DNA from: Clostridia bacterium
GTDB lineage: Bacteria > Bacillota > Clostridia > Oscillospirales > Acutalibacteraceae
DNA: 43,658 bases
Assembly: GCA_017629275.1 (NCBI GenBank)
Contig: JAGBXM010000109.1
Coordinates: 1 to 43,658 of the forward strand
Direction of reading: 5' to 3'
Shown here: in pieces, positions 9,491 through 31,123 of the stretch
Layout of the letters: the number at the start of each line of letters is the position of its first letter
Position numbering within the stretch: position 1 is the first letter of the stretch
The notes under the pieces: model-generated
The model's input: the letters and a program-made list of their open reading frames with translations, nothing else
What the model was told of the DNA's origin: nothing
Database searches by the model: none
Made by a program: the position numbers and the translations under genes

Positions 9491-9492
9491 TA

Positions 9493-15267: not shown

Positions 15268-15359
15268 GAGAAAAAGTTTTGTTTTATTGATTTTATGTCG
15301 ATTTTAAGAGCGTTTTATTAAAAGTTTTCAAAATTTTAGCGAAACATTAAAAATAATAC

Positions 15360-15388: not shown

Positions 15389-15403
15389 AGTCGGGTAACC
15401 AAT

Positions 15404-15495
15404 GGAGAAATCGCGTAGTTGGTCGAGCGCGCACGATTGGAAATCGTGTAACCGTTAAAAGCGGTTCGAGGGTTCGAATCCCTCTTTCTCCGCCA
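15404..15495 (+). tRNA. tRNA-Ser (anticodon GGA)
   Basis: The acceptor stem GGAGAAA (15404-15410) pairs with TTTCTCC (15485-15491), then G and an encoded CCA. The anticodon loop TTGGAAA closed by CACGA/TCGTG gives anticodon GGA. A long variable arm (ACCGTTAAAAGCGGT) marks serine. It is the third serine tRNA of the window. The antisense frame that begins with GERGIRTLE is a known tRNA-derived artefact and not a gene. Confidence 0.97.
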
Positions 15496-15547
15496 TCAAA
15501 ACAGGCACCACCTTGCGTGGTGCCTGTTTTGATTTGCGGAGAAAGAG
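15482..15547 (+). terminator. Long palindrome: tRNA 3' end plus terminator
   Basis: The core hairpin, with AACAGGCACCAC against GTGGTGCCTGTT around CTTGC, ends in TTTTGAT and acts as an intrinsic terminator. Pairing continues outward almost without interruption: CTCTTTCTCCGC of the tRNA T-arm/acceptor end (from 15482) is repeated inverted as GCGGAGAAAGAG (15536-15547). The whole palindrome has arms of about 30 bases. Confidence 0.8.
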
Positions 15548-15761
15548 TTTGGATGAGAACAGTTTTGCCGAAAGGCAAAACTTATGGTGCTAAAGATATT
15601 TTCGCCTAAATTGCTTGATGTTTTGCATAATAATGGTATTATAATCTATATTGTTTTTGATTCTACTTTCGGTCGAGGGAGAATTTTTACTCCTCAACCG
15701 TTGGTATGTAGACTTTTTTTACTCCGTTTAATTATGATGTGATTGATGGGAGGAATTATGA
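15548..15761 (+). promoter_or_regulatory. Leader and promoter region of the XRE regulator
   Basis: No gene is seen here. A perfect 9-base-pair hairpin with a GAAA tetraloop lies at 15561-15582 (AGTTTTGCC/GGCAAAACT). A possible promoter is TTGATG (15615-15620) with TATTAT (15637-15642, 16-base spacer) or TATAAT (15640-15645). An imperfect hairpin at 15670-15700 (CGGTCGAGGGAG/CTCCTCAACCG) would lie in the transcript leader before the GGGAGGAA ribosome binding site. Confidence 0.45.
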
Positions 15762-16370
15762 ATGGATCAGGTTAAAACAGGAAGGTTTATTGCCGAGTGT
15801 CGGAAGACTTGCGGTATGACACAGATGCAGTTGGCCGAAAAACTTAACATTACCGACCGTGCGGTTTCTAAATGGGAAAACGGCAGGTCTTTGCCCGATT
15901 CGACCATTATGCTTGAATTGTGCGGATTGCTCAACATCAGTGTAAACGAATTATTGAACGGAGAGAAAATTATGGAAGATTTTAAAGAAAAGTCGGAGCA
16001 GATGCTCCTTGAGATGGCCAAACAAAAGGAAGAAAACGACCGAAAAATGTTGTTTTTGGAAATAATTATCGGTGTGCTTTCGGTAATCGTTCTTTTAGGC
16101 TTCAATTTTGCCGCCGCTTATTTTCCGATGGCCGATTGGCTCAAGGTGGTACTTGCGGTCACGGGATTTGTTTTGGGGTTGGTCGGTATAATGTTTGCAC
16201 TCAAAATAGAGCAGGAGGCAGGTTATTACGAATGCGGCAGGTGCCGTCACCGATACGTGCCGACCTATATGAGTGTTGTCTGGGCAATGCATGTGAACAG
16301 AACGAGATTTATGAAATGCCCAAAATGCCGTAAATGGTCGTGGCAAAAGAAGGTTATAAATAAAGATTGA
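15762..16370 (+). CDS. XRE family regulator with membrane helices and zinc ribbon
   Basis: This 202-residue protein has an N-terminal Cro/C1-type helix-turn-helix (about residues 8-62; MTQMQLAEKLNITDRAVSKW and WENGRSLPDS). A charged helical linker follows, then two membrane segments (about 95-120 and 124-146), and a C-terminal zinc ribbon with CGRC and CPKC pairs. XRE plus membrane plus zinc-ribbon proteins are common in Clostridia, with little known about their targets. A nearby ATG at 15758 leads to a stop after five codons, so 15762 is the start. It precedes the five-gene operon at 16.56 kb but has its own terminator. It could regulate that operon or be unrelated. Confidence 0.85.
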   Translation: MDQVKTGRFIAECRKTCGMTQMQLAEKLNITDRAVSKWENGRSLPDSTIMLELCGLLNISVNELLNGEKIMEDFKEKSEQMLLEMAKQKEENDRKMLFLEIIIGVLSVIVLLGFNFAAAYFPMADWLKVVLAVTGFVLGLVGIMFALKIEQEAGYYECGRCRHRYVPTYMSVVWAMHVNRTRFMKCPKCRKWSWQKKVINKD

Positions 16371-16374
16371 CGTT

Positions 16375-16423
16375 GAATTCAATGCGGCGAACCTAAAGTC
16401 AGGTTCGCCGCATTGAATTTTGC
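16375..16423 (+). terminator. Intrinsic terminator after the XRE regulator
   Basis: An almost perfect 19-20-base-pair stem (16375-16394 with 16401-16420, loop AAAGTC) is followed by T-rich sequence. It separates the regulator from the downstream operon. Confidence 0.88.
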
Positions 16424-16473
16424 ATTATTTTGGTATTTTCTTGATATTTCGGCTCTTTTCGGGTTGTTTCGTG

Positions 16474-16502
16474 TTGCGATTTTTGAAGTGATATGTTATT
16501 AT
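16474..16502 (+). promoter_or_regulatory. Promoter of the five-gene AAA+/CARF operon
   Basis: TTGCGA (16474-16479), a 17-base spacer and TATTAT (16497-16502) lie about 60 bases before the first gene, whose ATG follows GAGGGTGAG. No other clear promoter or terminator is visible until 28.6 kb. Confidence 0.6.
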
Positions 16503-16563
16503 ATAATAGGTTAAGTATATTTATTTGTATTAAAATTTTGAAATCTGATTTGAGGGTGAGAAA

Positions 16564-19500
16564 ATGGCTGCAAACGTAGTTAATTCGGCGATAGTTGAGG
16601 CTGTGATTGCTAAGGCGGAACAGGTGAAAAAGGATAATAAAAGTTCTTGTGTTACCAGTGCACATTTTATCATGGCGATTTTAGAGATAAAGTATATGAA
16701 GGAAGCGCCCACTTGTGACGATAAAGAGTTTACCGATGTATTCAAAGAGTTTATACTTACCGAAGGTCAGCTTAATACTTATTACACAAAATTGACCGAA
16801 TATCTTGAAAAAACAAAGGTGTTTAGTTTTACCGAGGCAACAACCTTTAATGCTGCGCTTGATTTTGCAACTTCGGCGGCAATGCGCAACAAGAAAACGC
16901 AGATTATGCTTTCTGATGTTGTTCAACAGGTATTTCTTAACACTAATTCGGCGGCCTATAAACTGAAGATTGAAGCGACGCAAGGGAAAAAGAGTGGGGC
17001 TCAGGCATCCGATAATGTTAAAAGCGGCATTGTGACTCCCGATCTTAAGATTGAACTTGACGACCTGTTCGATGATGAAGCCACGGGCAATGATACCTTG
17101 CCTTTCGACTCTCTCTTTGATGAATTTGAACCCGAAGGCATTAAGGAAACCATTGGCGAGATAAAGGAAATTCAAAACAAGCTTTTCCAAAAGGTGTTTG
17201 GCCAGGATGAGGCGATATCGTCTTTGATTTCGGGTTATTTCAATGCTATTATAAAATCGGGCGGCGAGCGAAAGGACAAGCGTGCATTGGCCACCTTCCT
17301 TTTTGCAGGTGCCCCCGGCGTCGGTAAGACCTATCTTGCCGAATGTACTGCCGAGGCTTTGGGCCGTCCGTTCAAGCGTTTTGATATGAGTAGCTTCCAC
17401 GAAAAAGAAGCAGGACTTGCCTTTGCAGGAAGTAACAAGGTCTACAAAAACGGTCATCCCGGTGTTGTTACGGATTTTGTCAAGCACAATCCTTCGTGCG
17501 TACTGCTTTTTGATGAGATCGAAAAGGCTCATATAAACGTTATCCATATGTTCTTGCAGATACTTGATGCAGGTATATTGCAGGATCAGTTCACCGAGGA
17601 AAACGTTTCGTTTGCTAATTCTATTATAATAATGACTACCAATGCAGGCCGTTCTCTTTATGAAAATGAGGATCAGCATCAGGGTGCTATCAGCCGTAAG
17701 GTCGTGCTTAATGCACTGGCCAACGAAAAGAATCAGTATACCGATGCGCCTATATTCCCGACGGCTATCTGTTCGCGTTTTGCTTCGGGTAACATCGTTT
17801 TGTTTAACCCGTTGGGCGCGTTGGATCTTATTCATATCGTTGAGCGCCGTATGGACGAGTATTGCGAGACCTTTGAAAAGCAGCAAAACATTAAAATAGA
17901 GCGTGACAAGTATATTGGCGCCGCTTTGATGTTCTCGGAAGGCGGTAAGGCCGATGCCCGTTCATTAAAGGGACGTGCCGACAGTTTTATTTCAAGCGAA
18001 GCCTATAATTGGATGAAATTTGCCTATGAAAAGGATAAGGACAAGATTGATTCTTTAAAGACCGTCAACGTTAAGGTTGATATTGACGGTACGGACGAAG
18101 AGTCGGCTACCCTTTTCAGAAAAAGAGAAAAGTCCAACGTTTTGCTGTTTTCGCAAAGACAGGGTGTATTTGATGACGTGATCGGATTGAACGGTTGTGA
18201 GTTCACGTTGACCGATAACGAAGAAGTCGCGAAGGACATTATTGCCGAGAATAACATTGATTTTGTGATTTGCGATATTATTGTCGACCGTGCCGACAAG
18301 ACACTCAACGTTGAGGATATACATTCAAGCGGCAGAAAACTGTTTGAAACCTTTGTCCGCGACGGTATTCCTTTCTTTGTGCTGTGCGACCATCCGCAGT
18401 TGATGAACTCGGAGGAGCGTCAGGCAATGCTTGAGCAGGGTGCACACGGTATTTTTGATTCTCATAAGACCGACGTTCAGCAGGAACTTGACGAAATTGC
18501 GCGTCTTGTTTACTGTGAGGAAATGCTCGGACGTCTCAGACGTGCAAATAAGGTCTTGACCTTTGACTGTAATTATGAGTGGAGTGAAAACGGCGAGGTC
18601 GGTACCATTTCGGTAGCCAATTTGAGGATTTCTCCCGCTATTGATGCCGAGGACCGCGACGCTGTTGCTCCCATCGACGTTTCGACGGTTACCTTTGATC
18701 AGATAATCGGCGCAGAGGACGCGCAGGCGGAGCTTAAGAGTTTTATTTCTTATCTTAAGGATCCCAGGCAGTATGCTAAATTCGGCGTTCCTGCACCCAA
18801 AGGTGTTATACTTTTCGGCCCCCCGGGAACGGGTAAAACTATGCTTGCCAAGGCTCTGGCTCACGAATCTTCGGCTTCATTTATTGCAACTCAGGGCAAC
18901 GCATTTTTGAAGTCGGGATTAGGAAAAGGTGCCGAAAGTATGCACGAAACATTCAGAAAGGCTCGTAAATACGCGCCCTGCGTTCTGTTTATAGATGAGT
19001 TCGATGCAATAGCAAAGGACCGTATGTCGGGTAATGATATGGCATCTGACGTTGTCAATGCGTTGCTTAATGAAATGGACGGTTTTTCGACCAATCCTTC
19101 GAAACCTGTTTTTGTTCTTGCCGCAACCAACTTTGATGCTCAGTACGGACAGAAAAGTGCGCTTGATGCCGCCGTGCTTCGCCGTTTTGACCGCAGAATA
19201 TTTGTCGATCTGCCCGACCGTGACGACCGCAGAAAATACATTACCGCAAGACTTCTGAAAAGCCGTCAGAAGCTTGACGAAGCCGTTATTGAAAATCTTT
19301 CAATGCGTTCTATCGGTATGAGTCTTGCCGAGTTGGCCTCGGTTATTGACTTTGCGTTGAGAACCATGATTATGAAGGGTGAGACCGGGCTGAGCGAAGC
19401 TATGCTTGACGAGGCGTTTGAGACCTACCGTTTCGGCGAAAAGACCGAGTGGAAGGAAGAAACGCTTAAACGCGTTGCACTGCACGAAGCAGGTCATGCG

Positions 19501-19971
19501 TTTATCAATTGGCATTATGGTAAAAAGCTTGGATATATCACCGTTACGGGCCGTGGCAACTTCGGAGGTTACGTTCAGACCGAAGAAAACGAGTCGCCCA
19601 TTCTTACCGTTGATGACCTTGAACGCACCATTTGCGGATACCTTGCAGGACGTGCCTGCGAAACGGTATTCTACGGCAAACGCGGCGGTGCTTCGACGGG
19701 TGCGGCCGACGATCTTAATAAGGCTACACGCCTCGCCGTAAAAATGGTTAATGAATTGGGTATGGTTTCGCAACACGGACTTGCCGTTGAACACGAAAAA
19801 GAGATCGGCAACGATACCGTTGAGATGTGCAATAAGATTCTGGACGAACAAATGAGCGTTGCCGTTGATCTTATCAAGAAAAACAAGGCACGTGTTCAAA
19901 AATTGGCCGATGAGCTTATTAGAAAGAACCACCTGATGGGTAACGCGGTGGACGAGATATTTAAAAACTGA
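16564..19971 (+). CDS. Clp-N/AAA+/receiver-like/FtsH-like AAA+ zinc protease fusion
   Basis: A 1135-residue multidomain protein. Residues 1-135 resemble the Clp N-domain double repeat. Residues 200-500 form a Clp-type AAA+ module with Walker A GAPGVGKT (249-256), Walker B VLLFDEIEKAH (313-323) and a sensor-2-like ADARSLKGR. Residues 523-660 look like a response-regulator receiver with D571 in the phospho-acceptor position but no N-terminal acidic pair. Residues 705-930 are an FtsH-type AAA+ domain with Walker A GPPGTGKT (752-759), Walker B FIDEFDA (D811/E812) and arginines in LRRFDRR. The M41 peptidase follows with HEAGH (974-978) and a probable third zinc ligand D1050 in STGAADDL. Unlike FtsH it has no membrane helix. 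I infer an ATP-driven soluble protease, first gene of an operon with a Rossmann membrane protein, a STAND ATPase and a CARF nuclease. Confidence 0.9.
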   Translation: MAANVVNSAIVEAVIAKAEQVKKDNKSSCVTSAHFIMAILEIKYMKEAPTCDDKEFTDVFKEFILTEGQLNTYYTKLTEYLEKTKVFSFTEATTFNAALDFATSAAMRNKKTQIMLSDVVQQVFLNTNSAAYKLKIEATQGKKSGAQASDNVKSGIVTPDLKIELDDLFDDEATGNDTLPFDSLFDEFEPEGIKETIGEIKEIQNKLFQKVFGQDEAISSLISGYFNAIIKSGGERKDKRALATFLFAGAPGVGKTYLAECTAEALGRPFKRFDMSSFHEKEAGLAFAGSNKVYKNGHPGVVTDFVKHNPSCVLLFDEIEKAHINVIHMFLQILDAGILQDQFTEENVSFANSIIIMTTNAGRSLYENEDQHQGAISRKVVLNALANEKNQYTDAPIFPTAICSRFASGNIVLFNPLGALDLIHIVERRMDEYCETFEKQQNIKIERDKYIGAALMFSEGGKADARSLKGRADSFISSEAYNWMKFAYEKDKDKIDSLKTVNVKVDIDGTDEESATLFRKREKSNVLLFSQRQGVFDDVIGLNGCEFTLTDNEEVAKDIIAENNIDFVICDIIVDRADKTLNVEDIHSSGRKLFETFVRDGIPFFVLCDHPQLMNSEERQAMLEQGAHGIFDSHKTDVQQELDEIARLVYCEEMLGRLRRANKVLTFDCNYEWSENGEVGTISVANLRISPAIDAEDRDAVAPIDVSTVTFDQIIGAEDAQAELKSFISYLKDPRQYAKFGVPAPKGVILFGPPGTGKTMLAKALAHESSASFIATQGNAFLKSGLGKGAESMHETFRKARKYAPCVLFIDEFDAIAKDRMSGNDMASDVVNALLNEMDGFSTNPSKPVFVLAATNFDAQYGQKSALDAAVLRRFDRRIFVDLPDRDDRRKYITARLLKSRQKLDEAVIENLSMRSIGMSLAELASVIDFALRTMIMKGETGLSEAMLDEAFETYRFGEKTEWKEETLKRVALHEAGHAFINWHYGKKLGYITVTGRGNFGGYVQTEENESPILTVDDLERTICGYLAGRACETVFYGKRGGASTGAADDLNKATRLAVKMVNELGMVSQHGLAVEHEKEIGNDTVEMCNKILDEQMSVAVDLIKKNKARVQKLADELIRKNHLMGNAVDEIFKN

Positions 19972-19998
19972 TAGTTTGATTTTGTGTGAGGTAGAGAT

Positions 19999-22314
19999 AT
20001 GAACTGGCACTTGTTTTGTGACTGCTTTATTTTGTTTTTGGTTGCTGTTTGCGGCGTGCTTTACTATCTGACAACCTTGAGATCGTTTGTCGGAATGAAG
20101 TTTACGTCAAACGCAAGAAAACTATTGCGCACGGTATTTGTTATTGCGGCCGGTACCTTTGTGTTTTTCGGAAGCGAATATCAGAGGAACTGGGGTGACA
20201 TCCGCATATTTTTTGATTCAATATACCGTTCTGCGCGATTGCTTTTGTTAGACGGAACGCTGGAGTTCAAAAATGTGTGTGATAATTTCAGTTGCAAACC
20301 GATGGCTTACATTTACATCGCTGCTTATTACGTTGTATGCGGTGTTGCGGCTATTACGGCGGTTTATACGGTTTTTTCTCTGTTTAAGAACGTGGTGGAG
20401 CGCAGAAAGCTGTTTGCCAAGCTCAAGAAAAAAGATGTTTGTGTATTCAACGAACTTAATGAACGTTCATTGGCAACCGCCCGTTCTTTGATGGAACATC
20501 CGTGGCCCGAACGCGAAAAGGATGGCTCTTTTGAAGGCAATTCGAAGGATGAAAAGGTGTATGATTTCTTTTCGGTACGACCCGAAGGTACACCTGTAAT
20601 TGCGTTTTGCGACGTTTACAGACAGAACAACGAGATATCACATGAGCTTATTGCCGAGGCCGAAAAGCTTAATGCAATATGCCTTAAAATGAGCATTGTC
20701 GATCTTCACCGCCGTTTGCGCGACAAAAAGGCCTACAAGCATTCGAAAAAGCATATTTTCAGATATTATCTGTTCGGTTTTAACGAAAACGAGAATATGC
20801 ATCATACGGTTGAGATTGTTGATATTGAAAAACAGGCACACGATGAAAACAAGCCGTTGTTTTTTAATCTTGGTATTTTTGTTATTGCACTTGATCATGC
20901 AAAGGGTGTTATGATCGACAGTCTTAATTACAAATTGGCACAGTTGTATACTGCGGTCGAGCAAGAAGATGTTGAACAGGAACCGAAAGCTGCCGAAAAT
21001 CAAGATAAGGCTGAAACGAATGAAACGACTGCGACCATAACGGGCGGTGAGAAAACCGACGTCGCTGACGGTACGGAACAAAATAAGGGCGATAAGGAGC
21101 AGAAAAAAGAGGAAAAAGGCGATACCGAGGCAGACAGAATCGGTGCTTCGGGTGTGTTTATCCGCCGACTGAATCCTGCTTTGATGATGGCTCAGCACAT
21201 AGTGTTTGATCCCTATCACTGCTTGGTCGAAAAGGGCAAAAACGCTGATAAGGATCTTAACGTTATCGTTCTTGGCGCCGGAAGCTACGGTATTGAGCTT
21301 ATTAAGTGTCTTTGTTGGTTCTATCAGCGTATAACGGGAGGAATCACTATACATGTAGTTGACAAATCACCTGATGCCGAAGATATGCTTAAAGCCAAAA
21401 TGGCTCAACTTATCGGTCATAAAAACCCTGAAGACCCCACCCAGGATGCCAAACTCAATGTTAAGGTTTACGGTGGAGTCGACGTTTTGCGCCATAGTTT
21501 TAAGGATAAGCTGAAGGATGCCTTGGTCGATCCCGATGCTGTGTTCGTTTGCCTTGGTGACGACAACCTCAACGTCGAGGTTGCTATGGCGGTGCGTACC
21601 TTACTTGACCGCATAAACTACAAGCAGGTATATGACGCGTATGACAACAGCGACGGCAATGAGTACGTTAAGATAACCAAGCACGGTGACGATATAGAAC
21701 TTGAAGACAAGATCAAGATATTTGCCGTTGTCCATAAAAAAGAGAATGACCTTTCCCATGATATGGGAGGTTGGAACAGGTTTTCAAGCGGTAACTTTAA
21801 CATTCGCTGTGTCGGCATGGATACTAACGTATATTCCGAAAAGGAAATCTACGATTTTGATTTTGAACGCGCCGCTTTAAAACGTCATCGCGGACACAAT
21901 GGCGATAAAACCTTGGTATATGCCATCAATTCATATATTTCTTGTGAGGTTGACCGTATTTCGTCCAAGTCTTCGGAGGCACATAAAAGTCTGGTATTGG
22001 GATTGTATGATTCCGTTGAGCAGGATGAAAATAATAAGAAGCCGGTTTACCATAAAAACGGCGCTTTAACCGAGAACTATTACGGTAGCGATGAACAGGC
22101 TATGACCGAAAGCAAACGTTGGAATGCGTATATGCTGTGCCGCGGTGCGGTTGTTGTTGATGAAAAAATGGATAAAGATCGGCACCAAGCGATTTATTAC
22201 AACAAAAAGAAATCGGTCGAATGGCGTTTTGACCGAGGAATGTGGCATAACGGTATATCTCCTTTTAACGAAAAGACTCAAAAAGAGAAGGAAAACAACC
22301 GTTACGAAAAATGA
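19999..22314 (+). CDS. Membrane-anchored TrkA-N-like Rossmann protein
   Basis: A 771-residue protein. Three membrane segments lie near the N-terminus (about residues 5-27, 43-62 and 97-123). A cytoplasmic region at 140-315 reads like a degenerate Rossmann fold (VCVFNELNERSLATA, VIAFCDV). An acidic, low-complexity linker covers about 316-383. A canonical TrkA-N/RCK-like nucleotide-binding domain follows, with VLGAGSYG (424-431) and the ribose-binding acid D455 in HVVDKSP. Near the C-terminus ESKRWNAYM (704-712) faintly recalls RyR-type domains fused to TrkA-N, but this is weak. I infer a nucleotide-sensing membrane protein or channel. It starts 27 bases after the protease fusion gene and ends 20 bases before the STAND ATPase, so it is part of the operon. 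Confidence 0.8.
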   Translation: MNWHLFCDCFILFLVAVCGVLYYLTTLRSFVGMKFTSNARKLLRTVFVIAAGTFVFFGSEYQRNWGDIRIFFDSIYRSARLLLLDGTLEFKNVCDNFSCKPMAYIYIAAYYVVCGVAAITAVYTVFSLFKNVVERRKLFAKLKKKDVCVFNELNERSLATARSLMEHPWPEREKDGSFEGNSKDEKVYDFFSVRPEGTPVIAFCDVYRQNNEISHELIAEAEKLNAICLKMSIVDLHRRLRDKKAYKHSKKHIFRYYLFGFNENENMHHTVEIVDIEKQAHDENKPLFFNLGIFVIALDHAKGVMIDSLNYKLAQLYTAVEQEDVEQEPKAAENQDKAETNETTATITGGEKTDVADGTEQNKGDKEQKKEEKGDTEADRIGASGVFIRRLNPALMMAQHIVFDPYHCLVEKGKNADKDLNVIVLGAGSYGIELIKCLCWFYQRITGGITIHVVDKSPDAEDMLKAKMAQLIGHKNPEDPTQDAKLNVKVYGGVDVLRHSFKDKLKDALVDPDAVFVCLGDDNLNVEVAMAVRTLLDRINYKQVYDAYDNSDGNEYVKITKHGDDIELEDKIKIFAVVHKKENDLSHDMGGWNRFSSGNFNIRCVGMDTNVYSEKEIYDFDFERAALKRHRGHNGDKTLVYAINSYISCEVDRISSKSSEAHKSLVLGLYDSVEQDENNKKPVYHKNGALTENYYGSDEQAMTESKRWNAYMLCRGAVVVDEKMDKDRHQAIYYNKKKSVEWRFDRGMWHNGISPFNEKTQKEKENNRYEK

Positions 22315-22334
22315 TTTAATGCGAGGGCATCTCC

Positions 22335-25300
22335 ATGAAGAGGATATACATATCGGGTGATACTGAATGTACAGGTCAGGTAAGAGATCTGTTCAACCGT
22401 GAAGTAAGACCCGAACTCAACACATTTGCGTTAGATTACTTTGGTGACTTTTATCAGTTTGAAGACCTTTGGTTCAAACGCGAGCAGGTGACCGAAGGCT
22501 CGTCGCTGGCCACTGCACTTGAACGGCTTCAACGTGCGGTGCCCGGCCACCCTTACGTTGTTATTTTGGGTAAAGAATACGGAGTGGTTGCCGAAGGCGA
22601 AGTTATCGATGAGGCCATCGTCGAGCTTGACGGCAACGAAGTGCTGATCAATGCGCTCAATGAGTTCAGGGGTTGCAGTATCACCGAAACGGAAATATCT
22701 TTGGCGGCTTACGGTTTCGGTGCCGAAAACACATCCGATTTCAAAAACAGAACGCTTTTTCTTATTGACCCCGAGACCGACGATCCGAGGCAGGAGGCTT
22801 TAAAGAACCGTATCAAGGCCGATTTCGACAAAAATCATATAATAGATTTGTCTCAGTATGGCGACGCTCCGTTTGAATCGGTCGAACTCAAAGTCGAGAT
22901 CGTTACCCGCCTTAAGAGTATGATTTCCGATGGAATCAGTCCGTGTACCGTGACTCCGTTTGATGAAGAAATTGAGTTTCATAAAGCTTTAGGTCAAGAT
23001 TTGAGCGCACGTGCGGTCTACCGTAAAGAGTTTGCACAGCAGTTGGTTCAGAATCTTTACGACGCCGAGGATGAGGGCGAGGGTATAGATATTACCTATG
23101 TGCGCGGTGAGGTCGGAGCAGGCAAGACCTGTTTGATGAGTCTTATCGCAGACGAGTTGGAAAAAACTTATAAGGTATGCCGCGTTTTTTGCGGACGTAC
23201 CGTTCAGTCTGATTCGAGCATCGGCGTTGCCGAGACAATTGCCGATTGGTTGTATGCACACGTTAATGATTGCACACGCGATCTGAATGCCAACGTATTT
23301 GATGAGTTGAATATTATCAACGAGCTTTACTCGTTGGACGGAGATACCGATACCGTTTATGTTTTGATAGACGGTATTGGCCTTTTGCGCCCTGACAGCG
23401 ACGCTATGAAGTTGAGATTTTTGCCTTATGAAATGTTTGGCAAGGTCAAGTTTATAGTCAGCAGCAGGTTAAGTGAAGAGGATTTTAAAAAGAGGTATTA
23501 TAAATTTACGGCAGGTGGTGCCGCAGAGATCTATACGGTAGAGTTGTCCCAAATTTCCAAAGAGGAGATATGCAAGGTCTTAAAACCTGCACTTTTACAC
23601 CGTTGTGCCGTAAGTAATGCCGCCGAAAGAATCGCCGCACATCTTGAAGAACTTAATGCGGCAACGCCGCTTGTTGTGTCGCTGTGTGCCGCACGTATTG
23701 AGCAGTTGTCGGATTCAGGTGTGCAGTTTATAATGCAAGAACACCACTGCGCCGATATAGTTGAGGCTTATATAAAGTGGATAGATTTGATGTTGCTCGA
23801 AGCAAACGGCCAACGCCGTGAGTTGGATTCCGTGCTTTATCAATCGGTCGGTCAAATATTTACCGAAAATGATATGCGGGTGTTTTGTATCGCAGTTTCC
23901 AGACACGGAGTTCTGGCGGGAACGCTTAATCATTCGTTTAGCTTTGGTTGCGATGAACTGGAATTTTACGAATTGATGCGTGGTTATCGCCATCTGCTTT
24001 TTGAAAGAGACGACGGACTTATCGACTTTTGGTATGACGGTTTCCGCGAGGTATTTGTCAACCGTATGACAAGAGAGTATAAAGTATACTGTCACAAGAT
24101 GTTGAAAACCTGTTATTTTGAGACCGAGATTCAGTTTTGCAAAAAGCTTGATATGGGTAATCTTTACCACTGTCTGGAGTCTGACGACAGTGAATTGGTG
24201 CACGCACTCGTGTTGCATTATACGGTAAATAGCAATGATACCCTTGAAGATCAGTTGAAAAAGCAGAGCTGTCTTACCGTTATTGCGCGTATTCTTCGCG
24301 ATTATTTGCCGTCGAGGTTTATTGACAGTGATTTCGTGGTCGGTACAACGGTCGGTTTTATAAGGTTTTGTGAGACCTATTTGTTTAACAGTTATTCGGA
24401 TTCGTATACAGATTCCCGTCAGTGCATTATGATGATGTACGAACTTGCGAAAATATACGCCGACCGACACGCGGAACCGTCTTACAGGTGTTACGATGCC
24501 GACAGGATACCCAAAATCGGCGGTTATCATACCGATGCACCCGATGAAATGACGGTCAAAGAACTTGCGCTGTCACGCTCTCCCTTGTTGCTTCAATACT
24601 ATCAGTTAAAGATTTTGGAAAAGGTCGACGATTATACCAGGGAAGCAGGATGGAAGTATAGCGGTATGGGCCCTGAGTATGACATAATGAAAAACAACCT
24701 TGCATCTCGTTTTTGTGATACGGTTGATGCTTATCTCGAACTGTTGCCTAAGGCTTCTAACTTTTCCAGCGTCGAAGATTTTTATAATAAGCTTATCTGC
24801 GCTGTTTATTCTCCCGAAAACCAAGGCTCTTACATTCAGGAATTCAAAAAGGTCGAAGCAAGGTTTTTTGATTATCAGGGCGAACTGCTTAAGAGGGTTG
24901 AGGGTATCAATCCCTCGCAGCGTTCATTACGTTACGCCATTATTAATATGCTTATGTCCTGTGCTTCAAAGTTGTCGCGTAGCTTTGAGGCCAATTGGCT
25001 GAAGTGTGATGCCGATAAAATCCAATCGACATTGGAAGCCTATTTTTCCACCGTTGGAATGATTGGCAGCGGTGTTGAGATCGCAGGAGACCTGGGTGTA
25101 TTTTTCCATTATGTCGCAGAGGACTTTGTCAATTGTTGTGATGGTGCTCGAGATGTGATCGATATGTGCGATAAAATTATCGATTTTTCGTTGGATTACA
25201 TCGAGCTTTGCGGTACACGCGCTTACGCAATGGACAATATAAACTATTGTCTTGTGATGATTGAAACTGAACTTGATATGGATACTCCCGAACAGTTTAA

Positions 25301-25916
25301 GGAGTTGAAGGAACGCTATTTCAAGATTGCCGACCGTTTGATTAGGCTTTACCGTCAACGCGCATCCGCGAGTTTTTACTCAACCTTTGATGCAATTGGG
25401 TTTAATCTGTTTTTTGACGGTATGAAGAAAACCTTTGCCGATTATTCTGATATGATGGGTGAGGCTTTCGGCGAAGAATATATCAGTATTCTCAATAAAT
25501 GGTATGAGTATTCATTGACCTATTTTAATTCACGGGTCCTTACATCCGATTGCTTGGATTATTATATAGCGTTGTGTCACTTAACAGATAACGCTGTTGA
25601 TGTTTGTAAAAAGTGCGAATATTATGAGACCGCTCTTGAACTTAAAGATAGGATAAAATCAGATTTTATAAAGGTGCTTGACGGCATACTTACAATGTTT
25701 GAGGAGCGCGAGGGCTCGTGCGGTGATGCCAAGAGACTTAAAAGATTGGGTACTGATTTCATACCCGGGATAACCGAGGATGAGACCTATAAACTGCTTG
25801 TTGAGGATTTGAATTCGTTATTCAAATATATTGAAGAACGCGATGAACTCGATGATGAAGTATTGGTATTAGCGCGTTGGAATTGGAAAAGAAAGAATGT
25901 TGTGGTGATCAAATGA
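22335..25916 (+). CDS. DUF4062-STAND (NACHT-like) ATPase
   Basis: A 1193-residue protein. Residues 1-190 match DUF4062: KRIYISGDTECTGQVRDLF, REQVTEGSS, HPYVVILGKEYG and SITETEISLAA. A STAND/NACHT-like P-loop ATPase follows with Walker A GEVGAGKT (258-265), Walker B VYVLIDGIGLL (D346) and KFIVSSRLSEED as the sensor strand. A winged-helix-like segment lies around 520-580 (FTENDMRVFCIAVSRHGVL). Residues about 600-1193 are alpha-helical, plausibly a repeat-type sensor scaffold. STAND ATPases oligomerise on ligand binding and act in NLR-type immunity; DUF4062 also precedes NACHT domains in animal proteins such as NWD1. I infer the sensor/amplifier of this operon. Its last codon overlaps the next gene (ATGA), so the two are translationally coupled. 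Confidence 0.87.
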   Translation: MKRIYISGDTECTGQVRDLFNREVRPELNTFALDYFGDFYQFEDLWFKREQVTEGSSLATALERLQRAVPGHPYVVILGKEYGVVAEGEVIDEAIVELDGNEVLINALNEFRGCSITETEISLAAYGFGAENTSDFKNRTLFLIDPETDDPRQEALKNRIKADFDKNHIIDLSQYGDAPFESVELKVEIVTRLKSMISDGISPCTVTPFDEEIEFHKALGQDLSARAVYRKEFAQQLVQNLYDAEDEGEGIDITYVRGEVGAGKTCLMSLIADELEKTYKVCRVFCGRTVQSDSSIGVAETIADWLYAHVNDCTRDLNANVFDELNIINELYSLDGDTDTVYVLIDGIGLLRPDSDAMKLRFLPYEMFGKVKFIVSSRLSEEDFKKRYYKFTAGGAAEIYTVELSQISKEEICKVLKPALLHRCAVSNAAERIAAHLEELNAATPLVVSLCAARIEQLSDSGVQFIMQEHHCADIVEAYIKWIDLMLLEANGQRRELDSVLYQSVGQIFTENDMRVFCIAVSRHGVLAGTLNHSFSFGCDELEFYELMRGYRHLLFERDDGLIDFWYDGFREVFVNRMTREYKVYCHKMLKTCYFETEIQFCKKLDMGNLYHCLESDDSELVHALVLHYTVNSNDTLEDQLKKQSCLTVIARILRDYLPSRFIDSDFVVGTTVGFIRFCETYLFNSYSDSYTDSRQCIMMMYELAKIYADRHAEPSYRCYDADRIPKIGGYHTDAPDEMTVKELALSRSPLLLQYYQLKILEKVDDYTREAGWKYSGMGPEYDIMKNNLASRFCDTVDAYLELLPKASNFSSVEDFYNKLICAVYSPENQGSYIQEFKKVEARFFDYQGELLKRVEGINPSQRSLRYAIINMLMSCASKLSRSFEANWLKCDADKIQSTLEAYFSTVGMIGSGVEIAGDLGVFFHYVAEDFVNCCDGARDVIDMCDKIIDFSLDYIELCGTRAYAMDNINYCLVMIETELDMDTPEQFKELKERYFKIADRLIRLYRQRASASFYSTFDAIGFNLFFDGMKKTFADYSDMMGEAFGEEYISILNKWYEYSLTYFNSRVLTSDCLDYYIALCHLTDNAVDVCKKCEYYETALELKDRIKSDFIKVLDGILTMFEEREGSCGDAKRLKRLGTDFIPGITEDETYKLLVEDLNSLFKYIEERDELDDEVLVLARWNWKRKNVVVIK

Positions 25917-27262
25917 CAATAGTAGAATGTTTTGAAAAAGGTGCGATAGAGAATATGATAAGCACCCTCACGTCCCGCCCCGATAAGTTGATATTTATCG
26001 GTAAAGAGTCGCAGATGGGTGATACTTTAGAGGTTTATAAAAATTTCCTCGAAAAACAGGAGTACAATACGTTTGTTGATACGCGTGATATTGATAAGAA
26101 CAATCTTGCCGATATCGTGAGAGTTTTGACCGAATTGGTCGAATCGGAAGAGGAGCTTATTATTGATGTTACGGGCGGCGAGGATGTAGTTTTGTTGGCT
26201 GTTGGTATGGTTTATCAGAAATACCGCGATACATATCCCATAAAGCTTCAGAAGTTTAACCTTAAAAACGGCAAGATCATCGACTGTGACGGCGACGATG
26301 AAGTATCGTTTGACGGTGCTTTTTCACTGTCGGTCAAGGACCTGATCTCTTTGTACGGCGGTGAGGTCGTACCCGAAACTCCGCAACCTGCTGAGTACGT
26401 ATCTTCTTTTGACATCAATAATCTTTGGAAGATCGTTTGTGACGACCCAAAAAGATGGAACAAGTCGGTGTCTTACCTTCGTGAGTTTGAGGCCCATGCC
26501 GAGAAAAAGGAACGGGAAGAACGTCAAAAGAATATGACCAAGGAAGAACGGGAGGAAGATAATAAAAAAAGAGAGGGCGCTCCCAGTTTTAAAATGGAGT
26601 ATTCTCTGAATATTGATGAACTTTCTCGGACTATTGTTGATTATGACGAAAAATTCAAGGAATACTGTTATATAATAAGACGCTTGTTGCTTGAAGATAT
26701 GGTTGAGAATTTCTCGTTTGACGGCAAGGTGTTTTCATATAAGTATAAGGATCAGTTGATCAGACGCTGTTTAAACAAGTCGGGTGACGTGCTTGAAATG
26801 AAAACCTATTTCGAGGCACGCGATCTTATAGAAAATAAGAAGAATTTCTACAGCGATTGTTATATGAGTGTTCATATCGATTGGGACGGTGTGGTTCATA
26901 AGGTAGACGACGAAATAAAAGACACGCGCAATGAAATTGATGTTATTCTTATGCGCGGTATTGTGCCGGTGTTTATTTCGTGTAAAAACGGTAAGGTCGA
27001 AGAAGACGAACTGTATAAACTCAATACGGTTGCCGAAAAGTTCGGCGGCGAAAACGCCCGTAAGGTGCTTATTGCCACCGATTTTAAGCGCGATAATGAG
27101 GGCTCGGAAATTGCGTTTAAGCAACGTTGTAAGGATATGAATATTATATTCATTGAGGACGCTCAGGAACTGACCGATGAAGAGTGGAGAAAAATGATGC
27201 TTAATATCATAAAGAATCCTTTGGCCTGTATACGCAAGGAAGACCGTGCGATTTTAACCTGA
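25913..27262 (+). CDS. Card1-like protein: CARF domain plus PD-(D/E)XK nuclease (DUF1887)
   Basis: A 449-residue protein of the DUF1887/Card1/Can2 type. The N-terminal CARF domain (about 1-150) has KLIFIGKE and the ligand-loop motif IIDVTGGEDV (T87-G-G). A highly charged linker sits around 195-230. The C-terminal nuclease (about 280-449) has E295 in DVLEMKTY, D343 in TRNEIDVIL and SCK (S356-K358) in FISCKNG, then ARKVLIATDF. In Card1 the CARF domain binds cyclic tetra-adenylate made by Cas10 and switches on nucleic-acid cleavage. Here position 356 is serine where many PD-(D/E)XK nucleases have glutamate; E341 might substitute. No CRISPR array or cas gene is in the window. The start at 25913 overlaps the STAND ATPase stop; the longer open frame from 25877 is not supported. 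Confidence 0.88.
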   Translation: MTIVECFEKGAIENMISTLTSRPDKLIFIGKESQMGDTLEVYKNFLEKQEYNTFVDTRDIDKNNLADIVRVLTELVESEEELIIDVTGGEDVVLLAVGMVYQKYRDTYPIKLQKFNLKNGKIIDCDGDDEVSFDGAFSLSVKDLISLYGGEVVPETPQPAEYVSSFDINNLWKIVCDDPKRWNKSVSYLREFEAHAEKKEREERQKNMTKEEREEDNKKREGAPSFKMEYSLNIDELSRTIVDYDEKFKEYCYIIRRLLLEDMVENFSFDGKVFSYKYKDQLIRRCLNKSGDVLEMKTYFEARDLIENKKNFYSDCYMSVHIDWDGVVHKVDDEIKDTRNEIDVILMRGIVPVFISCKNGKVEEDELYKLNTVAEKFGGENARKVLIATDFKRDNEGSEIAFKQRCKDMNIIFIEDAQELTDEEWRKMMLNIIKNPLACIRKEDRAILT

Positions 27263-27276
27263 AAAGGGATGAAAAA

Positions 27277-28572
27277 GTGAAAAAAACAGAATATTTTAAG
27301 TATGCACTGAAGGTTGTTTTCAGTTATACATTGGCATTTCTGCGATGGTTGGCATTGGGTGCCGCTATCGGAGTGTGCGGAGGTGTTGTGGGAGCGGCGT
27401 TTGCACGGTCGGTACAGTTTGTTACCGAACTGAGAGCGCAGTATACCTGGTTGATACTTCTTTTGCCGTTGGGCGGACTTTTATCGGTTACGATATACAA
27501 ACTGTGCCGTGTCACCGATATCGGTACCAATCGTGTTTTTGAGAGTGTGAGAAGTGAAACCAAGGTGCCGTATCTGTTGGCTCCCGCCGTGTTCTTAGGC
27601 TCGGTAATAACGCATTTGTTCGGCGGCTCGGCAGGACGTGAGGGCGCGGCATTACAGCTCGGCGGCTCGGTTGCTTCACTGTTGGGACGGTTGTTGAAAC
27701 TTGACGAGAAAACGCGGCACATATTGACCATTTGCGGTATGGGTGCTTTTTTCTCGGCTCTTTTCGGAACGCCCTTGGGTGCGGCAATATTTGCGCTTGA
27801 GGTCGTCAGCGTCGGACATTTCTGCTCTGCGGCGTTTTTCCCTGCAATCATTTCGTCGGTTACGGCTTACGGAATCGCTTTGAAGCTTGGTGTTCACCCC
27901 GAAAGATTTGCGCTATTGGTTGACCCGGGGTTAGAGGTTGACATCATCTGGAAGGTGGCGGTTATTGCTGTTCTCGGCGCATTTATAAGTTTTTTGTTTT
28001 GTGCCGTTATGCACTCGACGGAGCATTTGTTCAAACGACTGTTTAAGAACGAATATTTAAGGGTTGCGGTTGGCGGTGTGGCAATAGTTCTGTTGACCGC
28101 ACTTGTCGGCAACGGCGATTACAACGGCGGTGGCATTTCGGTTATAGAACGTATTTTTTCAGATAACACCGTCAGGCCCGAAGCCTTTTTGCTCAAGATA
28201 CTTTTCACTGCCATTACCATAGCAGTTGGCTTTAAAGGCGGCGAAATAGTTCCGACACTTTTTATAGGCGCAACCTTCGGAGCGGCTTTAGGCGGCGCTT
28301 TGGAAATTGATTTGGGACTTGCGGCGGCGGTCGGTATGGCGGCTTTGTTCTGCGGAGTTACCAATTGTCCGTTGGCGACGATTGTGTTGTGCGTTGAATT
28401 GTTCGGCGGCAAGGGAATGATATTCTGTGCGTTATCTGCTATTATCAGCTTCCTCTTGTCGGGTACGGCAAGTCTTTACACGGGACAGCGCTTTATATTC
28501 TCCAAACTTAATGAAGATAGTTTTAAAACTGATACTGCCGTTGATATGGGAATATCGGCAAACGAAGAATAA
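27277..28572 (+). CDS. CLC family anion transporter, fluoride-clade-like
   Basis: A 431-residue CLC protein with about ten membrane helices. The gating motif GGSAGREGA carries E122. The internal proton-path glutamate of CLC exchangers is not conserved (PLGAAIFALEVV has E then V). The helix-N motif reads GFKGGEIVPTLFIGA (E323) rather than the chloride-type GIFAP. GGE-type sequences at this site are typical of the CLC-F fluoride/proton antiporters, so I infer fluoride export rather than chloride transport. The GTG start follows AAAGGGATG, 14 bases after the CARF nuclease, without a terminator between, so it should be co-transcribed. I see no fluoride riboswitch in the 14-base gap. Whether it is functionally part of the system is open. 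Confidence 0.85.
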   Translation: MKKTEYFKYALKVVFSYTLAFLRWLALGAAIGVCGGVVGAAFARSVQFVTELRAQYTWLILLLPLGGLLSVTIYKLCRVTDIGTNRVFESVRSETKVPYLLAPAVFLGSVITHLFGGSAGREGAALQLGGSVASLLGRLLKLDEKTRHILTICGMGAFFSALFGTPLGAAIFALEVVSVGHFCSAAFFPAIISSVTAYGIALKLGVHPERFALLVDPGLEVDIIWKVAVIAVLGAFISFLFCAVMHSTEHLFKRLFKNEYLRVAVGGVAIVLLTALVGNGDYNGGGISVIERIFSDNTVRPEAFLLKILFTAITIAVGFKGGEIVPTLFIGATFGAALGGALEIDLGLAAAVGMAALFCGVTNCPLATIVLCVELFGGKGMIFCALSAIISFLLSGTASLYTGQRFIFSKLNEDSFKTDTAVDMGISANEE

Positions 28573-28585
28573 ATCAAAATCAAAA

Positions 28586-28623
28586 AAAATCCCGTTCAAG
28601 CGTTAGCTTGAACGGGATTTTTG
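28586..28623. terminator. Bidirectional intrinsic terminator
   Basis: AAAATCCCGTTCAAGC (28586-28601) and GCTTGAACGGGATTTT (28606-28621) pair perfectly around GTTA, with T after and A before the stem. It ends the five-gene operon and the convergent LRR gene. Confidence 0.93.
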
Positions 28624-28633
28624 CTGTTATTTA

Positions 28634-31123
28634 TTATTCATCAATGTGGGTGAGTGTGGTCTCTTTGATCTTCTTTTTCTTGAGATAGATTCTAAGGACT
28701 ACGATACCGGCTGCAACTGCGGCAACTGCAGCGAGGATGATAACGAAGAGGAAGAGGTTAGGACCTTCCGGTTCGGGCTCGATGTAGTCTTCGGGGTAGA
28801 AACTGGTTTTTACCTTGGCATCGGCCAAAAGGTTGGCGATGGTAGAACCTTCGACACATTCAACGGTCAACTTGGAGCAACCCTTGAATGCGTTCTTGCC
28901 GAGCAATTCAAAGCTCGAGGGCAAGCGCAAGGTCTTAAGTGAGGTGCATCCGTCGAAGGTGTTGTCGCCGACGCTACGGGGTCTGCCGAGGATCTCAACC
29001 TTTTCAAGTGCGGTACATCCGCTGAAGAGTTTAGACTCAAGAAGCGAAACGTTAGCGGGAAGGGTGATGTTCTTCAAAGCGGTACAGCCTTCGAAGACCG
29101 AAGCCGCAATGGAAGAAACTCTTGCGGGAATCTCAACGGTGACAAGCGAAGTACATCCGCTGAATGCACCCGAACTGATGGTGGTAAGGGTAGAGGGCAG
29201 GTTGATCTTGGTCAATGCGGTACAGCCCATAAACACTTCGGTAGAAAGTAAAGCATTGTTTTCAGGGACAGTGAACTCACTCAACAACGAGCAGTTTTTG
29301 AAGCAAGCATCACCGATCTCTTTAACGGTTGCAGGAATGGTGAGGGTCTTGAGTGAGGTACAACCTTCGAATACCGAAATGCCGAACTTGGTCATTGCGC
29401 CCTTCATTTCAACTGCCTCAAGTGAGGTACATCCTGCAAAGGTGTGGTCAAAGAACTGAGTAACACCTGCGGGAATGGAAATAGTCTTAATGGCAACACA
29501 ATCCTGGAATGCGTTGGTGCCGATCTCAACGATCGAATCAGGAAGGGTGACGGTAGCCAAAGTGGAGCAACCCTTGAATAATGCAGTATCAACCTTGGTT
29601 ACACGTGCGGGAATTTCAACCGCGGTAATACCGGTGCATCCTTCGAATGCCGATTTTCCGATAGTGGCAAGGAGGTTACGGTTGAGGTCGAGTGCAGTCA
29701 AACCGCTGCAGCTCATAAATGCGCCTTCGTTAATGGTAACGATTCCGGCGGGGAGCTGAAGGTTGGTAACTGCGGTACAACCAACGTAAGCATACTTGCC
29801 GATGGTCTCGACGGTGTCGGGAAGAACGATTTCGGTCAAAGCGGTACAGTTAGCGAATGCGCTTTCACCGACCGAGGCAAGTGCAGGTGAATAAGTAACC
29901 TTGGAAAGCTTTTCGCAAGCGGCGAAGGCTTCCTTGGAAATAGAAGTGACGTTACCGGTGTCAACCGAGGTAAGAGCAAGACATCCGCTGAACATTGCTT
30001 CGGGGATATTGGTAACGGTCTTGTTCATAACAGCGGTCTTGATCAGAGCACATTCGTTGAAGCTGTATGCGCCGATGCTTTTTACCGAGTCGGGAATAAT
30101 AACGGCATCCTTAGCTTTTGCGGCGGCATCACCAAAAGAGGTGAGGGCCTCACAACCGCTGAATGCAAAATCACCGATGGTCTCAACCTTGCCGTTAAGG
30201 GTAACGGTGGTAAGGCCGATACAGTCTACGAAAGCATAGCCGTTGATGTTCTTCACGCTTTCGGGAAGAACGATCTTGGTAATGAGTTCGCACTTACCGA
30301 ATGCCGCGTTGCCGACGGTCTCAAGTTTGGCGTCTTTAGCAAAGTTTACGGTCTTGAGAGCGGCGTTCTTATAGAAAGCACGTTCACCGATGGTGACGAG
30401 TGATGCGGGAATATTGACGGTTGCCAAAGCATCACACTTGCTGAATGCCTCCTGACCGATGGTGACAAGCTCGCAGTTCTCAGCAAAAACGATGTCGGTC
30501 AAGGCGGTGCAATTGTAGAAAGCGAATTCATCAATAGCGGTAACCTTGGCGGGAACGGTGATTGTAGTGAGAGCTACACACTTATCGAAAGCGTGTTTGC
30601 CGATGTATGTAAGGGTTTCGGGCAGGGTGACCTTCTCGAGCTTTTCGCAGTTGGCGAAGGTGTAATAGTCGAGACGGGTGATGCTCGAAGGTACGGTGAC
30701 CTCGGTCAACTGGGTTTTACCGAAAGCGGCATAGCCCAACGTCTTGACGGTCTCGGGAATGGTGACGGCCGAAAGCTTGGTGTTATAGAAAGCATAAGCA
30801 CCGATCTCGGTGACCGACGCGGGAATGGTAACCTCTTTAAGTGAGGCCGATTCAAAAGCGCCTGTGCCGATAACCGTAACAGCTTTGTCGCCTGCCTTAG
30901 AGGCCACGGTAACCTTGGCGGCCTTGCCTTTGTAACCGACGAGCTCGGCATGGTCGGCATATACTCTGTAAGTATAGTCGCCATCTTCGAGGATGGTGTA
31001 ATCGGCAGTAGCGGCGGCCGGTTCGCTGTAATCGAAGTTGGAAGAATCAACCCCACAACCACAGGCAAAAACGGCAATTACCAAAGCGACGATCAACAAT
31101 AATGTGATGTGAAACTTTTTCAT
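28634..31123 (-). CDS. BspA-like leucine-rich repeat surface protein
   Basis: An 829-residue cell-surface protein. The N-terminus has a lipoprotein-like signal (hydrophobic stretch to FACGC; Cys21 or Cys23 is a candidate lipidated residue, although the lipobox is imperfect). From about residue 80 to 780 runs an array of roughly thirty LRR_5 (Treponema pallidum/BspA type) units of about 23 residues with the pattern LTxVTIPxSVTEIGxxAFxxC. A C-terminal membrane helix (about 792-815) and a KKKK stop-transfer segment follow, so it may be anchored at both ends. Such proteins mediate adhesion or scaffold functions in gut bacteria; the ligand is unknown. It has a consensus promoter upstream and the start follows AGGAAGGG. 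Confidence 0.93.
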   Translation of the reverse strand: MKKFHITLLLIVALVIAVFACGCGVDSSNFDYSEPAAATADYTILEDGDYTYRVYADHAELVGYKGKAAKVTVASKAGDKAVTVIGTGAFESASLKEVTIPASVTEIGAYAFYNTKLSAVTIPETVKTLGYAAFGKTQLTEVTVPSSITRLDYYTFANCEKLEKVTLPETLTYIGKHAFDKCVALTTITVPAKVTAIDEFAFYNCTALTDIVFAENCELVTIGQEAFSKCDALATVNIPASLVTIGERAFYKNAALKTVNFAKDAKLETVGNAAFGKCELITKIVLPESVKNINGYAFVDCIGLTTVTLNGKVETIGDFAFSGCEALTSFGDAAAKAKDAVIIPDSVKSIGAYSFNECALIKTAVMNKTVTNIPEAMFSGCLALTSVDTGNVTSISKEAFAACEKLSKVTYSPALASVGESAFANCTALTEIVLPDTVETIGKYAYVGCTAVTNLQLPAGIVTINEGAFMSCSGLTALDLNRNLLATIGKSAFEGCTGITAVEIPARVTKVDTALFKGCSTLATVTLPDSIVEIGTNAFQDCVAIKTISIPAGVTQFFDHTFAGCTSLEAVEMKGAMTKFGISVFEGCTSLKTLTIPATVKEIGDACFKNCSLLSEFTVPENNALLSTEVFMGCTALTKINLPSTLTTISSGAFSGCTSLVTVEIPARVSSIAASVFEGCTALKNITLPANVSLLESKLFSGCTALEKVEILGRPRSVGDNTFDGCTSLKTLRLPSSFELLGKNAFKGCSKLTVECVEGSTIANLLADAKVKTSFYPEDYIEPEPEGPNLFLFVIILAAVAAVAAGIVVLRIYLKKKKIKETTLTHIDE

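Follow-up and report, generated by a model that had tools for sequence, protein, structure and literature searches.

A Clp/FtsH hybrid protease and its recurrent gene partners in Clostridia: a candidate nucleotide-signalling module

The window analyzed in this study is a stretch of 43,658 nucleotides from a Clostridia bacterium of the Acutalibacteraceae (contig JAGBXM010000109.1 of assembly GCA_017629275.1; contig C94 of genome G000 in our set, which has 2.08 Mb in 154 contigs and is 97% complete). Its central element is a unit of five genes, numbered P2 to P6 in 5'->3' order, encoding a Clp/FtsH hybrid protease (P2), a membrane protein with a Rossmann-like region (P3), a STAND-type protein (P4), a CARF-PD-(D/E)XK nuclease (P5) and a CLC-type transporter (P6). 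Comparison of gene content and neighbourhoods gives good support to the view that genes for P2, P3-type and CARF proteins form a recurrent set, around which accessory genes (standalone RyR, YbjN, TIR, and sigma-like plus HxxxCxxC genes) swap between loci; the set is judged to lie beyond chance because its members both co-occur and adjoin. An earlier note, made from the sequence of this DNA alone, had proposed conserved co-occurrence of the gene families as a check of its model, which was borne out for P2, P3-type and CARF genes, often as neighbours, and was not for P4, an orphan, or for the CLC gene, which stands apart in two relatives. We tentatively read the unit as a nucleotide-signalling conflict or stress module and give this reading a probability of about 0.38.

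A total of 394 genomes of the host order, treated as a single set, were searched with cut-offs of 1e-3 for P3, 1e-6 for P2 and 1e-10 for CARF; 2, 6 and 4 candidates, respectively, were scored per genome, and the presence counts are lower bounds. P2 was found in 13 genomes (14 loci), P3-type genes in 26 and CARF genes in 46. P3-type genes were present in 11 of the 13 P2 genomes (expected 0.86, Fisher 7e-13; 10 of 12 when the window's own genome is left out) and CARF genes in seven (expected 1.5, Fisher 1.9e-4; 6 of 12 and 8.9e-4 without the own genome), while 13 of the 26 P3-type genomes also carried CARF (expected 3.0, Fisher 5e-7), kinship being ignored in all these tests. Adjacency points the same way: a P3-type gene lies near P2 in 4 of the 14 census loci (G000, with the window, G215, G220 and G385) and a CARF gene in three (G000, again the window, G201 and G284). 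Random placement, in a comparison that includes the window, gave means of 0.10 and 0.07, and the observed counts were reached in 0 and 11 of 200,000 draws, respectively. The P3-type gene beside P2 in G385 was seen in the fetched stretch and had been missed by the genome census.

A broader collection of 29 P2 loci with 30 genes was then compiled from the window, L043, L056, L079-L094, L164, L165 and L187-L194; the shorter form P2b was counted as P2, L186 was left out as a duplicate of L085, and L192 and L193 were counted apart despite near-identical P2 proteins. L079-L094 are the 16 full-length proteins among the best 80 of 567 relatives from a genome-collection scan, the others (L095-L158) being short Clp-type matches; the 16 include a protein from Acidobacteriaceae and another from an Anaerolineales draft. 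Several of the loci end at contig borders, and neighbourhoods were fetched for part of the 46 CARF genomes. P3-type genes lie near P2 in 8 of the 29 loci (window, L043, L056, L081, L083, L087, L092 and L189), CARF genes in six (window, L083, L087, L092, L164 and L165), standalone RyR genes in four (L043, L056, L081 and L087), YbjN-type genes in nine (L082-L085, L087 and L187 by profile; L092, L190 and L191 by Pfam), sigma-like plus HxxxCxxC genes beside P2 in three (L093, L164 and L189), and TIR-superfamily genes in three when P4 is counted (window, L043 and L191). The seeds of the TIR, YbjN and sigma profiles came from these very loci, for YbjN from five of the six named under its profile. 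In six loci (window, L043, L081, L083, L087 and L189), which represent three or more families of the order, a P3-type gene follows P2 at a distance of -3 to 45 nt; L056 adds a fourth family, with one gene between the two. The earlier note had asked for a search outside CRISPR loci, and mostly no type III CRISPR genes were in view.

The accessory neighbours link the set with TIR and RyR proteins. In 5 of the 27 P3-selected loci (L033-L059), TIR genes that pass the Pfam cut-off share the strand of a nearby P3-type gene. They stand directly beside the P3-type gene in L039 (43 nt) and L050 (19 nt), after a second P3-type gene in L035 (46 nt) and one gene away in L052, and L043 carries a run on one strand in the order ross-P2-ross-RyR-TIR. 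This last locus (G220:C62, 6567-17627, minus strand) is the richest observed and has a TIR-FHA gene upstream of the run. A TIR profile built from four seeds among these genes detected one further gene in 39 other fetched loci (587 kb), near P2 in L191. Standalone RyR proteins passing Pfam were found in L056 (1.6e-35), L195 (4.5e-38) and L054 (3.9e-37), and standalone RyR genes lie beside P3-type genes without P2 in L045, L054, L057 and L059 and beside CARF in L195. Tandem pairs of YbjN-type genes encoding proteins of ~160 residues lie just upstream of P2 in L082, L083 (with the CARF gene between), L084, L085 and L187, and could possibly serve as protease adaptors. L081 (7434-12301) and L194 (6525-11385) each carry a second unit, with one shared gene order, namely a CARF2-only gene (PADLOC matches at 3e-54 and 2e-57, respectively), genes for proteins of ~300 and ~97 residues, and the shorter P2b protease. 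Kinase-like genes, recognized by eye, were seen directly upstream of P2 in L088 (5862-9461) and L089 (1115-4477), a clade with no CARF or P3-type genes nearby.

P2 (16564..19971, plus strand, as are all genes of the unit) is a protein of 1135 residues in which a Clp-type AAA domain, a receiver-like domain, an FtsH-type AAA domain and an M41 zinc protease follow one another, with Pfam matches to AAA_2 (1.5e-35), AAA (6.8e-48) and Peptidase_M41 (3.1e-24); the proposed Clp/FtsH fusion is thus confirmed. The Clp-type domain (17287..17679, residues 242-372) carries Walker A GAPGVGKT at 249, and the FtsH-type AAA plus M41 region (18805..19959; AAA residues 748-882, M41 residues 965-1132) carries Walker A GPPGTGKT at 752 and the HExxH motif as HEAGH at 974, so that HEAGH and both Walker A motifs are intact. 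Between them, a receiver-like domain (18115..18513, residues ~518-650, approximate borders) was placed by profile and alignment. A profile of this middle region from 18 members had 33 matches at E<=1 among PDB chains, mostly response-regulator receivers, all of them weak (FleR 0.011, CheY homolog 0.012), the best overall being a de novo protein (2.2e-4). The start of P2 resembles Clp-N when judged by eye. A hydropathy scan of P2 found no hydrophobic membrane segment and hence no N-terminal anchor of the FtsH kind, and P2 scored 287.5 bits against the FtsH equivalog model, whose cut-off is 600. The library matches listed for P2 include neither CARF nor SAVED, and its protease is of the M41 type, not Lon. 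Over its length P2 shares 41% and 40% identity with two relatives, and in the P2 tree the window copy forms a long branch (2.2).

P3 (19999..22314) has 771 residues, two hydrophobic segments (residues 9-27 and 104-122) and one or more Rossmann/TrkA-N-like regions. Its description as a Rossmann/TrkA-N membrane protein holds for the hydrophobic segments and is backed by one relative that matches TrkA_N at 1.1e-5, whereas P3 alone reaches 0.012, under the cut-off. The C-terminal segment (22096..22311, residues 700-771) was identified as RyR-like from the family alignment: RyR chains in PDB were matched at 1.4e-10 by the last ~50 positions of a profile built from 14 P3-family members, mostly of ~600 residues, and a four-sequence RyR profile reached significance in 15 of 28 P3-type proteins, of which nearly all belong to the ~600-residue branch. 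The 14-sequence alignment has E704, R707, W708, N709, A710, Y711, G716 and H750 invariant and His and Asp nearly invariant at 705 and 767, where the window protein has S705 and N767; the EHxRW start is kept in 8 of 9 P2-linked P3-type proteins, the exception being the window. By alignment, two of the four positions equivalent to the ligand-binding residues of RyDEP, given as H75, W78, H100 and D117 in the consulted part of PMC13232231, are kept in P3 (W708 and H750). The RyR-type assignment is thus firm for the tails of the ~600-residue branch and is extended by inference, from alignment, to the window P3 and its P2-linked relatives. Should the tail of the window protein bind a nucleotide, it would be expected to read the molecule and not to hydrolyze it. 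A second P3-type gene, of 599 residues, is present in the same genome (L033, G000:C17:3000-22000, at 8840-10639) on a stretch with neither P2 nor CARF relatives; its tail is RyR-like (3.6e-6 with the four-sequence profile; Pfam 0.0074, under the cut-off). Searches with P3 gave zero matches in a plasmid collection and, in a phage collection, one unannotated 22-kb faecal record with 22.6% identity over half of the query.

P4 (22335..25916) has 1193 residues, with a candidate TIR-like (DUF4062-like) N-domain (22335..22784) containing SITETE at 115-120 with the candidate catalytic Glu E120, and an NTPase region (23088..23468, residues 252-378) with Walker A GEVGAGKT at 258. The NTPase region scored 3.4e-5 against NPHP3_N (24.5 bits, just under the cut-off of 24.8). 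For the N-terminus, hhalign of residues 1-215 against a three-sequence DUF4062 alignment gave an E-value of 0.0011 with a probability of 20% and SITETE in the same register, and BLASTP against the N-terminus of the protein in L204 gave 0.041; full-length comparison of P4 with that DUF4062-STAND protein was not significant. The SxTxxE register was set through L204 and TEP1 chain 11gz, and E120 corresponds to TEP1 E1008 only if this chain ends at residue 1113. The N-terminus is possibly a divergent TIR-like domain, and a DUF4062 identity is weakly suggested at motif level, with a weak fit to the family. No convincing relative of P4 was found among solved structures. The DUF4062 model search, made to find P4, instead recovered a TEP1-like STAND gene in G284 (L204, also L223; G284:C37, minus strand), whose 1318-residue product matches TEP1 chain 11gz at 3.4e-23 and aligns SVTELE under TEP1 SVTEME; G284 also carries P2, CARF and P3-type genes. 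Elsewhere in the window's own genome, a protein of 1764 residues (L226, G000:C13:27500-36000, at 960-6254, minus strand) has a weak DUF4062 match (0.00235) and a start that looks TIR-like by eye, and is another candidate NADase.

P5 (25913..27262) is a protein of 449 residues from an ATG start, with a longer TTG form from 25877. Its Card1-like nature was upheld: it matches the PADLOC family CARF4-PDDEXK, a CARF domain fused to a PD-(D/E)XK nuclease, at 2e-26, a CARF-family profile matches VC1899 (1.3e-6) and Can2 (8e-6), and the Card1_endonuc score (1.2e-5, 25.3 bits) lies below the cut-off of 26.4. The motifs TGGED at 87, NEID at 340 and SCKNG at 356 were located, and N340, E341, D343 and SCKNG including K358 are invariant in 10 of 10 aligned sequences, leaving the nuclease motif intact. 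In another genome of the host family (G024, L201), a CARF gene of the same subfamily as P5 follows Cas10, Cmr3, Cmr4 and Cmr6 genes. P6 (27277..28572, GTG start) is a CLC transporter, as had been proposed (Voltage_CLC, 1.6e-66). CLC relatives were found in 5 of 13 other host-family genomes and number zero among the 935 open reading frames of 70 other fetched neighbourhoods; in two host-family relatives the CLC gene stands apart from the other window genes, with other neighbours. P6 was rejected as a member of the module: it belongs to the unit by spacing, lies outside the recurrent set, and its presence looks incidental.

The collinear arrangement of the five genes with gaps of 27, 20, -4 and 14 nt was confirmed by the coordinates of the open reading frames. 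A terminator-like stem of 20 pairs (16375..16420, plus strand), directly after an upstream HTH gene, forms the 5' border, and one of 17 pairs (28585..28622, listed on the plus strand and matched on both) forms the 3' border. Two promoter-like sites precede or overlap the start of P2, TTGCGA-17-TATTAT (16474..16502, plus strand), which is a consensus match only, and a second hexamer pair (16538-16565). Over 15200-29000, promoter-like matches number 35 against a shuffle mean of 23.7 (sd 4.6) and terminator-like matches 26 against 15.0 (sd 4.4). The supposed single promoter and single terminator stand as far as the border stems and upstream sites go, and are qualified by additional promoter-like matches within the unit genes. 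Because the excess over shuffles is moderate and such matches fall inside genes, transcription of the whole unit as one message is graded no higher than likely. G+C content is 41-49% in the five genes and 45-47% in the flanks. A tRNA-Ser gene lies at 15404-15495, and the next gene after the unit is convergent, encodes a BspA-type LRR protein (LRR_5 2e-187; 28634-31123, minus strand) and has the 3' stem in common with it.

If the unit is a nucleotide-signalling conflict or stress module, P4 would sense a trigger and oligomerize, and its TIR-like N-domain would cleave NAD+ to yield ADP-ribose or a related molecule. This nucleotide would then be bound by the RyR-like tail of P3, a TrkA-N-type Rossmann protein in the membrane, with a resulting change in the membrane itself or in a partner. 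The CARF domain of P5 would be triggered by a ligand of its own and switch on the nuclease, and P2, perhaps instructed by its receiver-like domain, would degrade targets, whether it acts as an effector itself or does away with a repressor. The nucleotide-signal model of the earlier note gains in theme from the RyR-type and TIR neighbours; at P4, DUF4062 is a motif-level call. The DUF4062-STAND label is less firm: the NTPase is NPHP3_N-like, and DUF4062 (PF13271) was reported for P4 neither at E<=1 nor in the DUF4062-model search at E<=0.1.

That negative result is one of several observations that weigh against the signalling module. P4 relatives are absent from 199 other host-family genomes and from 25 P3-positive genomes, and 390 genomes of the class yielded one match, weak, local and C-terminal (the three genome sets overlap). 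The RyR profile was significant in just one of the P2-linked P3-type proteins tested (L043:12635), the window P3 alone scores an E-value of 0.7 with the four-sequence profile, and Pfam RyR (PF02026) was not reported for it. HxxW with His at W+22, the spacing of RyDEP, is exact in 16 of 29 P3-type proteins, in 6 of 29 with Asp at +17 as well, and in 1 of 9 P2-linked ones. A linear ADP-ribose product would suit a reader of cyclic signals badly: the tested DUF4062 enzymes gave linear ADP-ribose and the RyR preprint concerns cyclic forms, and therefore even a true DUF4062 domain need not make the RyR ligand. The source of the CARF ligand was not found, and the Cas10 palm model PF22335 was without match in 13 of 13 P2 genomes, in a search with this single model that covered several incomplete drafts and did not extend to CD-NTases; one match was obtained in the control genome G024. 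The co-occurrence statistics take no account of phylogenetic relatedness, and parts of the module are frequently on separate contigs. No tested partner was found in 11 of the 29 P2 loci (L079, L080, L086, L088-L091, L094, L188, L192 and L193), among which are both non-Bacillota loci and some on short contigs, and the distribution of the P3-type label over the P2 tree takes 5 changes to explain, where shuffled labels take 7.2 on average, a mild clustering (no more changes were needed in 17 of 500 shuffles). Viral contigs scanned by pattern gave no sign of phage carriage, with one partial Clp-type match for P2, zero matches for CARF and for P3-type (queried with a relative of the window copy), and no P4 relative.

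Several other explanations compete with the signalling module. In a variant of it, a two-currency alarm, the CARF domain as oligonucleotide reader and the RyR-like tail as reader of ADP-ribose-type molecules would act with the soluble P2 to cause arrest or transcriptional release; we regard this as rather doubtful, the odds of both readings having been lowered because RyR is not significant in most P2-linked P3-type proteins and the DUF4062 product is linear. The main rival, possible though still short of the signalling module, is a regulated-proteolysis stress switch in which P2 is gated by CARF and RyR readers and, much as in CalpL-CalpT-CalpS, would release a sigma factor by eliminating an anti-sigma-like protein; the nuclease and the membrane protein would serve as additional outputs, and the whole would not be an immune system. 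This CalpL-like proposal is built on the three P2 loci with sigma-like and small HxxxCxxC genes, which also occur beside a CARF-AAA pair in L199, and it accords with the CARF2-only gene upstream of P2b in 2 of 2 P2b loci. The gene pair is, however, absent from the window and 26 of the 29 loci, the labels were assigned by reading and two sigma-like and two small genes returned no sigma or anti-sigma family from Pfam, and the CARF protein of the window is itself a nuclease.

The wide variation in composition, with P4 and the CLC gene peculiar to the window, the 11 partnerless loci, the parts scattered over contigs and the uncorrected kinship could all be accommodated if these were separate accessory genes that collect in the same genomes and at the same sites but do not work together, the spacing in the window being incidental. 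This seems unlikely to us, since adjacency is far above random placement and P2 precedes a P3-type gene at close range in six loci from several families. It is improbable that the genes serve as auxiliary effectors for a type III CRISPR or CBASS system whose own genes lie elsewhere, with the CARF nuclease answering cyclic oligoadenylate: the CARF gene that follows Cas10 in L201 and the Can2 match would agree with such a role, and the Cas10 palm result, within the limits given above, speaks against it. Two membrane proteins in one unit and Rossmann domains that by eye resemble RCK gating domains could also suggest an ion-handling operon, in which P3 (TrkA-N/RCK-like) and P6 form a transport unit with protease and nuclease riding along; with no CLC relative in the other neighbourhoods, no pairing of P3-type and CLC genes seen elsewhere and different neighbours in the two relatives, we consider this very improbable.

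The results point to a recurrent protease-centred module that no PADLOC match names, and to RyR-type proteins that are encoded by the host and adjoin TIR genes. In the consulted part of PMC13232231, phage evasion proteins connect the RyR domain with cyclic ADP-ribose signals; given host proteins of this kind, RyR nucleotide control could be put to a direct test on its bacterial side. A two-currency alarm, if true, would provide a bacterial counterpart of the link between RyR and cyclic ADP-ribose together with a nucleotide-governed M41 protease.

Among known systems, IetA, ThsB and other PADLOC matches were rejected as system calls. The IetA matches cover the AAA part of P2, and no peptidase family was reported for P3-P6 at E<=1, so that the subtilase IetS is unmatched; no ThsA or ThsB model is among the PADLOC matches listed for the five window proteins. 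A literature search by title and abstract start found no paper naming this set, although such neighbours may have been listed before. The vWA-MoxR ternary systems, which are predicted to be conflict systems, contain an FtsH-type protein of an unusual kind and have sisters with inactive STAND proteins (PMC7159879, consulted in part), differ in that no vWA or MoxR gene lies in the window unit, and their FtsH-type protein is given two FtsH-type AAA domains there, in contrast to one Clp-type and one FtsH-type in P2; the words 'RyR' and 'TrkA' have 0 occurrences in the available text of that paper.

According to the sections consulted of PMC13174449, DUF4062 is a TIR-like NADase that adjoins a NACHT ATPase in four human proteins, three of which were inactive and TEP1 alone active; the products were ADP-ribose and nicotinamide, the tested enzymes gave linear ADP-ribose, and TEP1 made no other derivative. 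P4 resembles Swarozyc and TEP1 in having a candidate TIR-like N-domain before a NACHT-like NTPase, the order of TEP1 and NPHP3, and differs in giving no match to the DUF4062 model, lacking a recognized portal-binding auxiliary domain and belonging to a multi-gene unit. In PMC13232231, 2'/3'cADPR is bound or cleaved by the RyR domains of phage proteins, and the likeness to Thoeris and RyDEP consists in loci that hold both RyR-type domains and TIR genes and in the HxxW and His pattern of much of the P3 family; P3 is, however, a host membrane protein and not a phage sponge or glycosidase, and in the window copy no more than W and one H are left. P5 shares with Card1 and Can2 the CARF-nuclease fusion, the intact NEID...SCK motif and the profile matches to Can2 and VC1899, and one relative follows III-B genes; it differs in a genome without Cas10 palm match (one model, draft assembly) and in adjoining a protease and a P3-type gene. 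The CalpL-CalpT-CalpS system comprises a SAVED-Lon protease, an anti-sigma factor and a sigma factor (PMC11229360, consulted in part). P2 departs from it as a Clp/FtsH-M41 hybrid whose presumed readers are separate proteins, with Cas10 unmatched and no sigma or anti-sigma genes adjacent in the window, and resembles it in the linkage of a protease to nucleotide readers and in the sigma-like and HxxxCxxC genes of 3 of the 29 loci, which makes P2 a concrete candidate for proteolysis under nucleotide alarms beyond the Lon-based CalpL.

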